Shown here: positions 305 through 3,796 of the stretch, in pieces
Numbering within the stretch: position 1 is the stretch's first letter
How the letters are laid out: the number at the start of each line of letters is the position of its first letter
From: Anaerolineales bacterium
Lineage (GTDB): Bacteria; Chloroflexota; Anaerolineae; Promineifilales; Promineifilaceae
Direction: 5' to 3'
Assembly: GCA_020432595.1 (NCBI GenBank)
Contig: JAGQGA010000330.1
Coordinates: forward strand, 1 to 6,326
Length of the DNA stretch: 6,326 bases
Program-made: the position numbers and the translations under genes
The notes under the pieces: model-generated
Seen by the model: only the letters and a program-made list of their open reading frames with translations
Database searches by the model: none
Told to the model about the DNA's origin: nothing

Positions 305-370
305 GAACAGGTAATCCATAACACCAGCCTAACCGAGCAGCCTGATGCGGTTAGCTGTATATAAGGAGTA
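291..370 (+). promoter_or_regulatory. Inverted repeat that could mask the ribosome binding site
   Basis: The left arm TACTCCTTTATAC (291-303) is complementary to the right arm GTATATAAGGAGTA (357-370) apart from one extra base. The right arm contains the AAGGAG ribosome binding site of the next gene. Inside lies a second, bulged hairpin, AGCCTAACCG (326-335) against CGGTTAGCT (348-356), directly abutting the outer right arm. If the whole region is transcribed, the RNA could fold to hide the Shine-Dalgarno. If transcription begins near 301, the outer left arm is mostly absent and only the inner hairpin can form. Confidence 0.35.
363..368 (+). promoter_or_regulatory. Ribosome binding site AAGGAG that fixes the GTG start
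   Basis: A strong AAGGAG sits six bases before the GTG at 375. The upstream in-frame ATG at 345 would place this Shine-Dalgarno inside the coding region and has no comparable site in front of it. This favours GTG 375 as the true start. Confidence 0.75.
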
Positions 371-374
371 CAGT

Positions 375-1157
375 GTGGAGATAGTTGAAAATTTAGCCAA
401 TTGGTACGATGAATATCGTGCTGGTTGGCTGGCACATTACCAACAGACCGGGCAAACCGATTTCCAGCTTTACAAACGGCCGAAAAACGAAAACAGTCCA
501 GGCATTCCGGGCATCAATCTGGCTCAGAGCCGCCTCATGTTCATCACCACTGCGGGGGCTTATTTGTCAGCCGGCCAAGAGCCATTTGATGCGGAAAATG
601 ATCTGGGTGATTATTCTATCCGTCAGTTTAGCTCAGACGTAACCTTTGACCAGTTAGGCTATGCCCATACCCATTATGACCACGCAGCCGTCAATGCTGA
701 CCCGCAGGTGCTGATGCCACTAACCCATTTGCGCCACAAAGTAGCGGACGGAGAAATTGGTGAGTTAGCCCCCTCAATTATCAGCTATTGTGGCTACCAG
801 CCAGACCTCAAGCAAGTGGTTGAGACCATGATCCCCCAAATTGTGGCCGTGGCGCTGGCCGAAAAAGTAGACGGTGCCCTGGTGGTACCCGCCTGACCGC
901 TTTGTATTCAGTCCGGTGGACTGGTTGCCAGAGCTTTAGAAATGAACGGCATTGCTACCACAACCACCAGTTGGAGTGGCTTCCGCATTGAGTTAGCGAA
1001 ACCACCGCGCACCACCATCACCTCCTTGGCACGGGGTGCCACCTTGGGGCAGCCCGGTGACAGCGCCCAACAGCTTCGGGTGTTGAATGCCACCCTGGCG
1101 CTACTGGCTCAAGATGCGCCCATTCCACCTGTGCGTTTGCGTGAGCGGGCAGAGTAA
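375..1157 (+). CDS. Selenoprotein of the PrdB/GrdB reductase selenoprotein B family (TGA read as Sec)
   Basis: I read this as one 260-residue selenoprotein. The in-frame TGA at 894-896 is codon 174, and the frame stays open after it to the TAA at 1155-1157. The family resemblance is continuous: GDYSIR (78-83), a His/Asp-rich segment HTHYD (98-102), PLTHLR (115-120), GEIGELAP (126-133), DGALVVPA (166-173), then U-P-L-C-I-Q-S-G-G-L-V-A-R-A-L-E and a C-terminal GATLGQPGD segment. Relatives have Cys or Sec at the first position of this CxxC-like motif, here Sec174/Cys177. The length is close to PrdB (about 240 aa) and much shorter than GrdB (over 400 aa). In anaerobes PrdB is the selenocysteine subunit of D-proline reductase. 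No gene for the pyruvoyl-bearing partner PrdA is visible, so the substrate is unknown; a thiol/selenol redox role is inferred. Start chosen at GTG 375 because of AAGGAG at 363-368. The protein appears cytoplasmic, with no signal peptide or membrane segment. Confidence 0.85.
894..896 (+). other. TGA selenocysteine codon (Sec174)
   Basis: This in-frame TGA lies exactly where Cys or Sec stands in PrdB/GrdB-like proteins, three residues before the conserved Cys177. Family-like protein sequence continues directly on its 3' side without a frame change. A hairpin of SECIS type follows. Together these argue for recoding and against a nonsense mutation. Confidence 0.85.
899..934 (+). promoter_or_regulatory. 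Putative bacterial SECIS element
   Basis: The upper stem CAGTCC (909-914) pairs perfectly with GGACTG (918-923), closing a three-base GGT loop (915-917). A lower stem pairs GCTTTG (899-904) with CAGAGC (929-934), including one G-U pair. Between them is an internal loop, TATT against GTTGC. Eighteen bases separate the TGA from the loop GG. Bacterial SECIS elements lie within the coding sequence just 3' of the UGA and carry a G/U-containing apical loop bound by SelB, which this matches. The same bases encode Gln-Ser-Gly-Gly-Leu of the conserved motif. Confidence 0.75.
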
Positions 1158-1214: not shown

Positions 1215-3209
1215 CTATGGCGTTGGCGATTGGACCAAGGCAGGGTCAACCGCTTGCACAAACAGGCTAATTAACTCGTTGGTGTCGGTTTCACCCTGGA
1301 AACGCCACGCTGGCTGCAGATAGAACTGCGTTTCTGTCGTTTCCGGGTCGTAGACCGGTGAAAAGATGTAGATAAGATCTACGCTGCTAATTGTGGCTTG
1401 CCCAATCTTGTATTCCACATAGGGCATGTCAATAATTGGCTCATCAATGGTTACTGGTGGTACATCTACAATTCGATCCAGGCTTTGCCAGCCAAGAATA
1501 ACCGTTTCGCCATTTTCATTGAGACCGCGCCAGCCGTTGAAGTAGACGCGCTCGCCATCAGCCAGGTCGGCCGGCGGGTTAGGCAGGATAAAGCTTTGGC
1601 CGTCGGTGCTGTTAAAGGTCACGGTGTCGCCGCTGCGGCTAATGCTGCCTTCCAGCCAGATGTATTCATAGCTGTTGTTAACGATTGGTTCCCAGCTTTG
1701 CAGCGTCAGCGTGGGGGTTGTTTCCATGTCGTTGACGGTGCCGACGATGCGGATTTGTTGCCCAACGTAGGGGGCGATGGCTTGTAGGTCAGCGTCGCTG
1801 GCGATGAGGCGGTATTGGTCAACCATAATGCGGGGTGGGGCATCGTTATTAACGGCCGTCATCACACTTGGATAAGGGAAGATCGTAACCGTGCCACCAT
1901 TCTGCGGCAGATTTTGCCATGACTTATACAAACTGTCGTCAACACCCGGTACCGGTACTGGGGTTGGGTAGACGTAGTTAGAGCCGGGCGTGGTGAAGAA
2001 GGTAATGCGGTTGTAATCAATCTCGCCGCTGGTCAGCAATTCCCAAGCCGCTTGCGCCGACTGAATGGGGTAGTTGCCAATGGCGGATAAATTGCTGAGC
2101 GGATTGTAGGCCACGGACAGGATTTGGCCGTTGTTGTTAACGCTGACCATGTATTCGGGATAGTTCACGATGCGCCCATCCAAAATGCGGTGGAATTCCA
2201 GATCACTGCCCCATGGAGCCACTACTTCGTATTCAAAATTGAGCAGACCACGGTCGCGCAGGAATGCTTCGGCGATGGGTTTGGCCTGGTCAACGGGCAT
2301 GGGTTCATAGTTGTAGTTTGGTGCAGCATTTTGGTCATAGTAGTACCAGCCATCTTCACGGACGGCGAGGTTACGCAGACCATCAAAGGTTTGGTAGACG
2401 GGGGGCGGTGTCCAAACTGTGCCGTTTTCGTCGGTGTAGGGTTGGTATTGATCTTGATAGAGCGTGGTGGGCATTCCAAACAGCTCCGCCAAGCGTACAG
2501 CATCTTCAAGGGTGAGCAGTTTGTTGCCGGGCTGGTGGTAGACAGTAACGGCCGTTTCTCCCTCTGGCAGCGTCGTGTTCAGCACAAAGTTAGTCTTGCC
2601 CAGTGGGTTCCATTCTGGGAAGCCCCCATCAACCGGCATTGGGTCAATGGCAATATCGCTAGTCGCTGCGCCACCGCCGCCACCACCCATGCCCATGCTC
2701 ACGCCTGCCGCCCCGCTGAGGCTAGGCAGCTTTGCCAAGGTTGTTGGGTCAGAGGTCGACACAACTGCGGCTTCACCTTCCTCAACTATTACGGTAGGCG
2801 TTATACCCGCCACTGCTGCTGGCTCCACGCTGCCGGGAGCTGCTGCCTGGAACATTGTCCAGGCGAAATAAGCGACTACCGCCAAAATGGCGACAGTTCC
2901 AAGTGCAAATACTGGTCGTTTCATGGTAAAAAATTCCTTTACAAATTGGCTGAAACCATTGGTTTCAGGTTGTTGTATTTTTGGCGTTGGCCGCCTGGAG
3001 GCACTGCGCGTCAGTTGTGCCTCCAGCGCGGCCACAAAATCAATGTCCGCTTCAGTTGATTGTGCCAGCCCGGCAAACTGGTCAGCCAGATGAGCCAATA
3101 CCATTACGTCTTCAGACGGCAGCAACCCCTCTGGCAGAGGTTGCTGCTTGAGCTTGCTGGTTATCAAGCTGTCCAGTTCATCGGCTAGCTGTTGCTCTGT
3201 CTTCTTCAT
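1215..3209 (-). CDS. Single-pass membrane protein, probable anti-sigma factor/sensor of the adjacent ECF sigma
   Basis: A 664-residue protein with a charged, helical N-terminal part (about 1-97), one hydrophobic membrane segment (about 99-121, after MKRP), a low-complexity Ala/Gly/Ser linker including MGMGGGGGG (172-180), and a large C-terminal region (about 195-664) rich in Tyr, Asn, Pro and beta-type sequence. The cytoplasmic N-terminus with an external C-terminal domain is the usual anti-sigma topology. Its ATG overlaps the sigma gene's stop by ATGA (3206-3209), and a GGAG lies inside the end of the sigma gene, so the two are translationally coupled. The external part has stretches such as PEYMVSVNNNGQILSVAYNP (351-370) and a terminal FYLQPAWRFQG (629-639) that vaguely recall YycH/YycI- or PepSY-like regulatory domains; I do not claim a family. 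No classical HxxxCxxC zinc anti-sigma motif is present. The role rests mainly on gene order and topology. Confidence 0.7.
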   Translation of the reverse strand: MKKTEQQLADELDSLITSKLKQQPLPEGLLPSEDVMVLAHLADQFAGLAQSTEADIDFVAALEAQLTRSASRRPTPKIQQPETNGFSQFVKEFFTMKRPVFALGTVAILAVVAYFAWTMFQAAAPGSVEPAAVAGITPTVIVEEGEAAVVSTSDPTTLAKLPSLSGAAGVSMGMGGGGGGAATSDIAIDPMPVDGGFPEWNPLGKTNFVLNTTLPEGETAVTVYHQPGNKLLTLEDAVRLAELFGMPTTLYQDQYQPYTDENGTVWTPPPVYQTFDGLRNLAVREDGWYYYDQNAAPNYNYEPMPVDQAKPIAEAFLRDRGLLNFEYEVVAPWGSDLEFHRILDGRIVNYPEYMVSVNNNGQILSVAYNPLSNLSAIGNYPIQSAQAAWELLTSGEIDYNRITFFTTPGSNYVYPTPVPVPGVDDSLYKSWQNLPQNGGTVTIFPYPSVMTAVNNDAPPRIMVDQYRLIASDADLQAIAPYVGQQIRIVGTVNDMETTPTLTLQSWEPIVNNSYEYIWLEGSISRSGDTVTFNSTDGQSFILPNPPADLADGERVYFNGWRGLNENGETVILGWQSLDRIVDVPPVTIDEPIIDMPYVEYKIGQATISSVDLIYIFSPVYDPETTETQFYLQPAWRFQGETDTNELISLFVQAVDPALVQSPTP
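1852..1859. repeat. Palindrome ACGGCCGT (copy 1, one mismatch to the decamer)
   Basis: AACGGCCGTC at 1851-1860 matches the decamer AACGGCCGTT except for its last base. Read on the minus strand it encodes Thr-Ala-Val (residues 451-453) of the membrane protein. Confidence 0.6.
2547..2556. repeat. Palindrome AACGGCCGTT (copy 2)
   Basis: Exact decamer. On the minus strand it encodes Thr-Ala-Val (residues 219-221) of the membrane protein. Confidence 0.65.
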
Positions 3210-3796
3210 GCCTTACTCTCCTGCGTAACGTTTAATTGGGTTTGCAGGTCGCGCAGCCCACGGAACAGCAACATACGCACGGCTGCCTCGTTTTTGTCCA
3301 ACAGTCGCGCAATGTCGGGTACCTCCAGCCCCGCCATGAGGCGAAGCGTGATGACTTCGGCGCGATCTGGGGCGATGGTTTGCAGCTTGCGTGTGACCCG
3401 GGCAATGTCAAGCTGCTGGTCGAGTTGTTCGTCGGGGTCGTCGGTATTGGTGTCGGTGAGGGAAACGGCCGTTTCCAAATCCACCTGCGGCTTCTGGCGG
3501 CGAAACTGGTCTGCCACCTTATGCCGCGCAATCCCCAACAGCCACGCCACAAATGGCTGTGTGCTGCGGTACGACTTCAACCCCTCCATCGCCGCCAAAA
3601 ACGTCTGCGATGTCAAATCCTGCGCATCCTGTACATTTCCACCCACCCGCACCAGCACATACCGATACACCCGCTGCACATGCCGCTGGTACAGTTCCGA
3701 AAACGCGCCTAAATTTTGTTGCGCCCGCGCCACCAGCATGTCATCCTCTACCACATTCACTGGTTCCAACGGGCTAATCAGTTGCATCAACATCAT
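3206..3796 (-). CDS. ECF-family RNA polymerase sigma factor
   Basis: A 196-residue sigma70-family factor of the extracytoplasmic-function type, with only regions 2 and 4. Region 2 spans about residues 30-102: FSELYQRHVQRVYRYVL, then DAQDLTSQTFLAA (57-69), the core-binding and -10 melting helices, then PFVAWLLGIARHKVADQFRR (81-100). An acidic linker follows (about 103-130). Region 4 is about 135-188, with the helix-turn-helix EVPDIARLLDKNEAAVRMLLFRGLRDL (158-184), which would read the -35 box. The start at 3796 is preceded by AGGAG ten bases upstream; a second ATG follows immediately, so the first or second Met may be used. It overlaps the downstream membrane protein by four bases, the standard arrangement of a sigma and its anti-sigma. 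The regulon cannot be told from the window. Copy 3 of the AACGGCCGTT palindrome lies inside it. Confidence 0.93.
   Translation of the reverse strand: MMLMQLISPLEPVNVVEDDMLVARAQQNLGAFSELYQRHVQRVYRYVLVRVGGNVQDAQDLTSQTFLAAMEGLKSYRSTQPFVAWLLGIARHKVADQFRRQKPQVDLETAVSLTDTNTDDPDEQLDQQLDIARVTRKLQTIAPDRAEVITLRLMAGLEVPDIARLLDKNEAAVRMLLFRGLRDLQTQLNVTQESKA
3461..3476. repeat. 16-base palindrome containing AACGGCCGTT (copy 3)
   Basis: GGAAACGGCCGTTTCC is a perfect palindrome; the decamer is 3464-3473. On the minus strand it encodes Thr-Ala-Val (residues 109-111) in the acidic linker of the sigma factor. Confidence 0.65.

Follow-up and report, generated by a model that had tools for sequence, protein, structure and literature searches.

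Results

A single in-frame TGA interrupts a PrdB-like gene

We analyzed a stretch of 6326 nucleotides from an Anaerolineales bacterium (hereafter, the window), which carries on its plus strand, at positions 375–1157, a PrdB-like (PF07355) gene for a putative selenoprotein. The frame that opens with GTG 375 and closes with TAA 1155–1157 contains one internal stop, a TGA at 894–896, and reading through it yields a product of 260 aa with predicted selenocysteine (Sec) at codon 174, in the motif U174-P-L-C177. The codon for Cys177, the second residue of UxxC, is the TGT at 903–905. The original prediction, made from the letters of the window, was that the frame continues past TGA 894 to 1157 and that a 71-aa ORF at 942–1157 wrongly looks unrelated. 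Translation confirmed both points: TGA 894–896 is the only interruption of a single frame, and what looks like a separate ORF is the C-terminal part of the 260-aa protein, in that same frame. The score against the NCBIfam PrdB model was 84.5 bits with read-through and 51.2 bits without it.

Six nucleotides upstream of GTG 375 lies AAGGAG (363–368, plus strand), which we take to be a Shine–Dalgarno-like motif. Because of this motif, and because 91 of the 120 listed database homologues are exactly 173 aa long, we consider GTG 375 a better start than ATG 345, which is used by P0002 (183 aa), the nearest of the database proteins. Directly after the TAA, in the gap that separates the gene from a convergent one (1215–3209), is a terminator-like hairpin (1161–1194, strand not assigned). 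The prediction gives it, with 15 pairs, for the minus strand alone; the plus strand likewise closes with a T run. With one terminator-like hairpin found compared to 1.2 expected in shuffles, it is weak on its own.

Database copies of the protein end at the TGA

A total of 159 database proteins matched. The 120 that were listed are 170–246 aa long, and their C termini (113 VPA or VPS, 5 APA, 1 IPA, and 1 APL) all fall just before the TGA, as expected from the proposal that standard annotation truncates the protein. A different reading of this pattern is that TGA 894 is a true stop, which would make this a truncated gene or a pseudogene and its tail a relic: all 120 listed gene calls end there, and the tail after the TGA stays open in 5.9% of base shuffles. 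The open tail by itself is weak evidence, and its strength comes from the comparison with clade loci given below. P0002 (98% identical to the first part of the window protein, cluster of 12 sequences) has the same end point, which argues against a sequencing error at TGA 894.

A protein search with the tail region, in which full-length Cys homologues were sought, returned one full-length match, P0122, with Trp at the Sec column (its residue 192). This Trp probably arose because the gene caller applied code 4 to a TGA. Genes of the P0122 type may be misread as well as truncated.

The TGA lies in a Cys column and is followed by sequence under coding selection

A single scan of the contigs of GTDB genomes yielded 15 loci (L001–L015; by record title, 14 Chloroflexota and 1 Zixiibacteriota) that are 50–61% identical to the window protein over nearly all of residues 1–260. 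Each of the 15 has TGA at column 174, and their aligned frames contain no other stop. In 28 further, more distant loci (L022–L049), the codon in this column is TGA in 24, TGC in 3, and TGT in 1. Over the 43 distinct loci formed by these two sets (second copies of L001 and L008, designated L020 and L021, being kept separate), the column thus holds 39 TGA and 4 Cys codons and never TAA or TAG, which agrees with the original proposal that the TGA replaces a family Cys and argues against a true stop.

The window and its 15 relatives, with TGA in 16 of 16, form a clade that extends over Anaerolineae, Caldilineae, Oscillochloris, Thermoflexus, and one Zixiibacteriota genome. L008 comes from Oscillochloris sp. 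ZM17-4, presumably an isolate, as its record bears no MAG label. In a tree of 32 rows, 14 of them from the clade, it is monophyletic with support of 100/100; the row nearest to the window protein is that of genome G002, at a fork whose support (85/79) is not firm. Among 132 genomes of the Zixiibacteriota, a match was found in 4, and only the genome of L015 itself reaches the level of the clade. We also surveyed 301 Chloroflexota genomes, counting relatives at E ≤ 1e-10, and found them in 65 genomes and 72 places in total. An in-frame TGA is present in 62 of the 72 places and absent from 10, and one of the 62, a fragment in G255, also has a TAA. The 28 further loci are drawn from these 72 places; of the other places, column 174 was read in the second copies L020 and L021.

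Mismatches between the window and the 15 relatives at the three codon positions were 0.369, 0.266, and 0.627 before the TGA and 0.321, 0.247, and 0.603 after it, and amino-acid identity was 0.528 before the TGA and 0.648 after. We conclude from this comparison that the tail is under coding selection and behaves as translated. The tail matches or exceeds the head in conservation (65% vs 53% identity) and has third-position bias, which speaks against a relic. Cys177 is invariant in a 29-row alignment (A2). Outside A2, the locus L039 (1969–2016) keeps the TGA and the hairpin, and the second Cys of its UxxC is replaced (U-P-R-D-H).

A conserved hairpin fits the rules for a bacterial SECIS element

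At 908–924 on the plus strand, we identified a candidate bSECIS hairpin by its fold, covariation, geometry, and synonymous conservation. The stem (908–914 with 918–924) has 7 pairs, the outermost being U-G, and the loop (GGU, 915–917) begins 18 nt after the TGA. A 48-nt stretch containing the hairpin folds at −17.6 kcal/mol, with a z of −2.74 for the window alone. The rules for bSECIS elements in the available sections of PMC13188914 are a loop of 3–9 nt with G among its first two nucleotides, a stem of 4–16 bp, a spacing of 16–37 nt, and an MFE ≤ −7.5 kcal/mol, and the hairpin agrees with all of them.

A hairpin with a spacing of 18 and a 3-nt G loop is present in 35 of 40 TGA rows. L036 has 4 bp only, and L041, L044, L049, and L045 carry another hairpin, of 6 bp, which also conforms to the rules. 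These last four loci, with a spacing of 23 or 17 nt and, in three of them, a U-P-D-C-C motif, are by sequence comparison another subfamily with its own predicted SECIS. Of the four Cys rows, two have no candidate hairpin and two have a 5-bp stem with one G-C pair, so that none of the 4 Cys genes has a hairpin like that of the TGA genes.

Across 38 distinct rows, 90.2% of cells were paired, compared to 82.6% in shuffles, and there were 10 two-sided cell changes, compared to 2.2 in shuffles; for neither measure was any of 500 shuffles as high. A weak measure of covariation, the number of pairs with a two-sided change, was 3 and was reached by 57 of 500 shuffles. As a control, sliding the partner by 1–3 columns in the 38-row alignment gave 8–53% paired. 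Synonymous codon identity was 0.734 in codons 179–184, where the hairpin lies, vs 0.402 and 0.343 elsewhere, and the hairpin's value was reached by 2 of 251 six-codon stretches, its own included. In the window alone, the hairpin score was reached in 30 of 2000 shuffles; the case for the hairpin is made by comparison rather than by the window alone. An Rfam search gave no match. A covariance model of the hairpin recovered 16 of 16 clade sites at E ≤ 2e-8, these being its training rows, and among other rows at E ≤ 1 it found only the Cys locus L046 (0.53) and L053 (0.63).

The conservation of this hairpin adds to the codon column, the conserved tail, and the end point shared with P0002, and together they make it very improbable that TGA 894 is a true stop.

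Genomes of relatives encode Sec machinery

A tRNA-Sec over the cut-off was found in all 15 relatives' genomes (best hits of 63–76 bits), with a cut-off that is not fully specific, as 5 of 14 control genomes also pass it. At E ≤ 1e-10, only Escherichia coli and Methanocaldococcus jannaschii remain among the controls, and all 15 relatives are below 1e-11. Over the cut-off in these genomes, mostly draft MAGs, were SelA in 13 of 15, SelD in 13, and SelB in 11; tRNA-Sec, SelA, SelB, and SelD occur all together in 8, G002 among them. SelD genes have an in-frame TGA of their own in 12 of 13 cases. The four genomes with no SelB over the cut-off (G001, G005, G008, and G014) have, beyond paralogous elongation factors, partial pieces only, that of G005 being a 40-residue end piece. 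In the Zixiibacteriota genome, the selA match (G015:C64:9741-11075) contains an in-frame TGA.

Within the Chloroflexota sample, 56 genomes have a TGA copy, as defined by an in-frame TGA in the matching place and not by reading the column copy by copy. Of these, 53 contain tRNA-Sec (E ≤ 1e-10, searched with stricter filters), vs 167 of 236 genomes without a match (Fisher p = 6e-5). At the same threshold, it was found in 6 of the 9 genomes of the sample whose copies all lack a stop. The three TGA-bearing genomes without a tRNA-Sec match are G099, G136, and G179.

The original prediction had named a variant code as a danger to the Sec reading. Decoding of TGA as Trp, or as some other amino acid, across the whole genome would agree with the W of P0122 at this column. 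Against this, the stop codon of the window's sigma-factor gene is itself a TGA (3206–3208), which overlaps the next ATG, and three clade members, L003, L008, and L013, end the same protein with TGA. The amidase of the window is full length (profile positions 1–445 of 445) with no sense TGA and with all 6 of its Trp encoded by TGG, bearing in mind that the absence of TGA from the counted window frames is partly circular, as the frames were chosen open under table 11. From these stops and the amidase, we conclude that TGA is not a general sense codon. The column also aligns with Cys in 4 loci, and we regard a variant code as extremely improbable.

The Sec174 claim of the original prediction thus finds support in the column of TGA and Cys codons, in coding selection before and after the TGA, in the conserved bSECIS hairpin, and in the Sec machinery of relatives. 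Taken together, the Sec reading of TGA 894–896 is strongly supported by comparative sequence evidence.

The protein is a PF07355 member, and the genomes of the 15 relatives show no match to the PrdA/GrdE family

We next consider what kind of selenoprotein this is. The original prediction of a PrdB/GrdB protein stands at the level of the family: the protein scores 30.2 bits against PF07355 (GRDB), above the gathering score of 22, and PF07355 matches 28 of the 29 A2 members at E ≤ 0.001. At the level of function it is not supported. TIGR04483, the PrdB equivalog, is the best model for the window protein and matches all 29 A2 rows, but the score of 84.5 bits is below its cut-off of 300. The GrdB models were missed as well (TIGR01917, 29.3 bits vs 602.2; TIGR01918, 34 vs 65.45), and the window motif is UPLCIQS rather than the UxxCxxC of GrdB.

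We take PF09338 (Gly_reductase) to be the family that holds PrdA and GrdE. PF09338 was found in none of the 15 relatives' genomes, most of which are drafts, and the 14 control genomes were silent in the same search; GrdA was likewise found in none of the 15. The search works, since it finds PF09338 in 8 of the 301 Chloroflexota genomes, 7 of which also have GrdA. In the Chloroflexota sample, four of the 65 genomes that have a relative contain PF09338 (G088, G184, G246, and G284), on contigs other than that of the relative, which in fragmented assemblies is no proof of distance. The available text of PMC9751293 reports glycine reductases in some Chloroflexota, in agreement with the 8 genomes found here.

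Among the window frames scanned, there was no PrdA (PF09338) or prd operon, and the window contains no PrdD. No cluster of neighboring genes is shared by more than two loci in the set made up of the window and its 15 relatives; for L001 and L008, this analysis took an antisense frame in place of the gene. L060, a Ligilactobacillus PrdB in an annotated prdA-prdB-prdD operon, is outside the window clade in the tree. Relatives on plasmids amount to 17 records; of the three examined, one is a prd operon and two are Cys forms beside unrelated genes. A search of the PDB by sequence gave no match for the single window protein. Profile matches in the PDB to a designed repeat protein (E 1.2e-4, no stretch of which passes alone) and to two glutaredoxins (E 0.45 and 0.5, on the C-x-x-C stretch) were judged to be chance.

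Other features of the window

A palindrome, AACGGCCGTT, is iterated in two relatives' genomes: G002 (5.7 Mb) has 2526 copies, against 22 of the reversed string as a control, and G014 (6.6 Mb) has 3716, against 6. In the five other relatives searched, there are 0–16 copies. In the window, ACGGCCGT occurs at 1852, 2548, 3465, 4868, and 6033, four of the five copies having the full ten bases. This gives 10 strand matches vs 0.18 expected; a high-order Markov estimate puts the expectation, at 4.3, nearly as high as what is seen, but the 7-mers of the repeat itself went into that estimate. L004 contains TCGGCCGA 10 times in 10.8 kb. By analogy, the genome-wide iterated AACGGCCGTT looks like the cyanobacterial HIP1 element, and none of the HIP1 papers listed in a literature search names Anaerolineae. 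The minus-strand stretch 1215–3796 holds two genes: one for an ECF-type sigma factor and one for a protein of 664 aa, whose ATG is overlapped by the TGA stop of the sigma-factor gene. The 664-aa protein has no Pfam match at E ≤ 0.01 and is, by position only, a candidate anti-sigma-like partner.

Discussion

Sec in PrdB and GrdB is already established, as described in the available sections of PMC13188914. The window protein is homologous to PrdB (TIGR04483; Clostridium sticklandii) over residues 48–245 and is similar to it in length, the model having 238 positions, and both have UxxC with Sec according to the same sections (PMC13188914). It is unlike PrdB in its score far below the equivalog cut-off, in the absence of PrdA and PrdD from the window and of PF09338 matches from the 15 relatives' genomes, and in the separation of its clade from the single operon-borne PrdB compared (L060). 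With GrdB, GrdF, and GrdH (PF07355), it shares a score above the PF07355 gathering threshold and Sec in UxxC, whereas its 260 aa compare with models of 431–435 positions, of which only the second half is matched. GrdB further differs in having UxxCxxC (PMC13188914, available sections) where the window has UPLCIQS, and GrdA and GrdE were not found in the 15 relatives.

UxxC selenoproteins named PrdB are known from marine metagenomes, with 42 from the Sargasso (PMC1088965, available text) and 235, plus 110 Cys homologues, from GOS (PMC2398784, available text). Like the window protein, they are PrdB/pfam07355 proteins with Sec in UxxC found via TGA and SECIS, and were catalogued in 2005–2008; unlike it, they are metagenome sequences named by similarity, and we liken them to the clade by description only. 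Cys proteins on Haematobacter and Roseomonas plasmids, annotated as "glycine/sarcosine/betaine reductase selenoprotein B family protein" (302–308 aa, CPxC as annotated), resemble the window gene in having no annotated PrdA in their 5-kb flanks, as judged from PLSDB gene tables that are incomplete, but are distant from the window clade in the tree. The available portions of PMC5029168, PMC12013277, and PMC9312934 contain no mention of such a clade, and among the open-licence papers listed in our literature searches, none dealt with a PrdA-less, Sec-bearing PrdB-like clade of Chloroflexota.

The protein might nevertheless be the PrdB subunit of a real D-proline reductase, or a GrdB-like subunit, with a pyruvoyl partner encoded elsewhere or too diverged. 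Its family membership, the rank of TIGR04483 as best model (29 of 29 A2 rows), and the UxxC common to PrdB (PMC13188914, available sections) are in line with this, and PrdA could escape detection in draft genomes or through divergence. We consider such a subunit unlikely for the following reasons: The score is 84.5 bits where the equivalog demands 300. PF09338 is found in 0 of 15 clade genomes and, in the Chloroflexota, in 4 of 65 genomes with a relative, on other contigs. The PrdB of the prdA-prdB-prdD operon lies outside the clade. Finally, the third Cys of the GrdB motif is absent.

We instead favor, with high confidence, a 260-aa PF07355 selenoprotein whose UGA is recoded through SelB and the hairpin, with a Sec174/Cys177 redox centre, and which stands alone, without PrdA or GrdE, likely outside Stickland metabolism. 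In this model, SelB and Sec-tRNA would recode UGA 894–896 with the aid of the hairpin at 908–924; comparison shows the codon, the hairpin with its conservation, and the machinery in relatives, and decoding in this organism is inferred. Sec174-x-x-Cys177 would, judging from the motif, form a redox centre that cycles between selenol/thiol and selenenyl-sulfide. The enzyme would do without the pyruvoyl PrdA/GrdE subunit on which D-proline and glycine reductases depend. Given that no partner, operon, or GrdA was found in relatives, it is most likely a stand-alone selenol oxidoreductase, or a reductase of a small substrate for which no pyruvoyl subunit is needed, rather than a Stickland enzyme. The UxxC motif predicts thiol/selenol redox activity. 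For the clade as a whole, we lean toward a separate selenoenzyme that uses the PrdB/GrdB scaffold with no pyruvoyl subunit and catalyzes a reaction other than Stickland amino-acid reduction.

Sec in PF07355 has long been known, so the protein is not new in kind, and the label PrdB should not be taken to mean D-proline reductase here. The redox centre of the family is invisible in standard annotation, as all 120 listed copies are cut at the active site and P0122 is misread. According to the available text of PMC2398784, proteins called PrdB rank with the most abundant selenoproteins of the sea. If many of these marine proteins are orphans like the window gene, the D-proline reductase label that they have carried since 2005 would be wrong.
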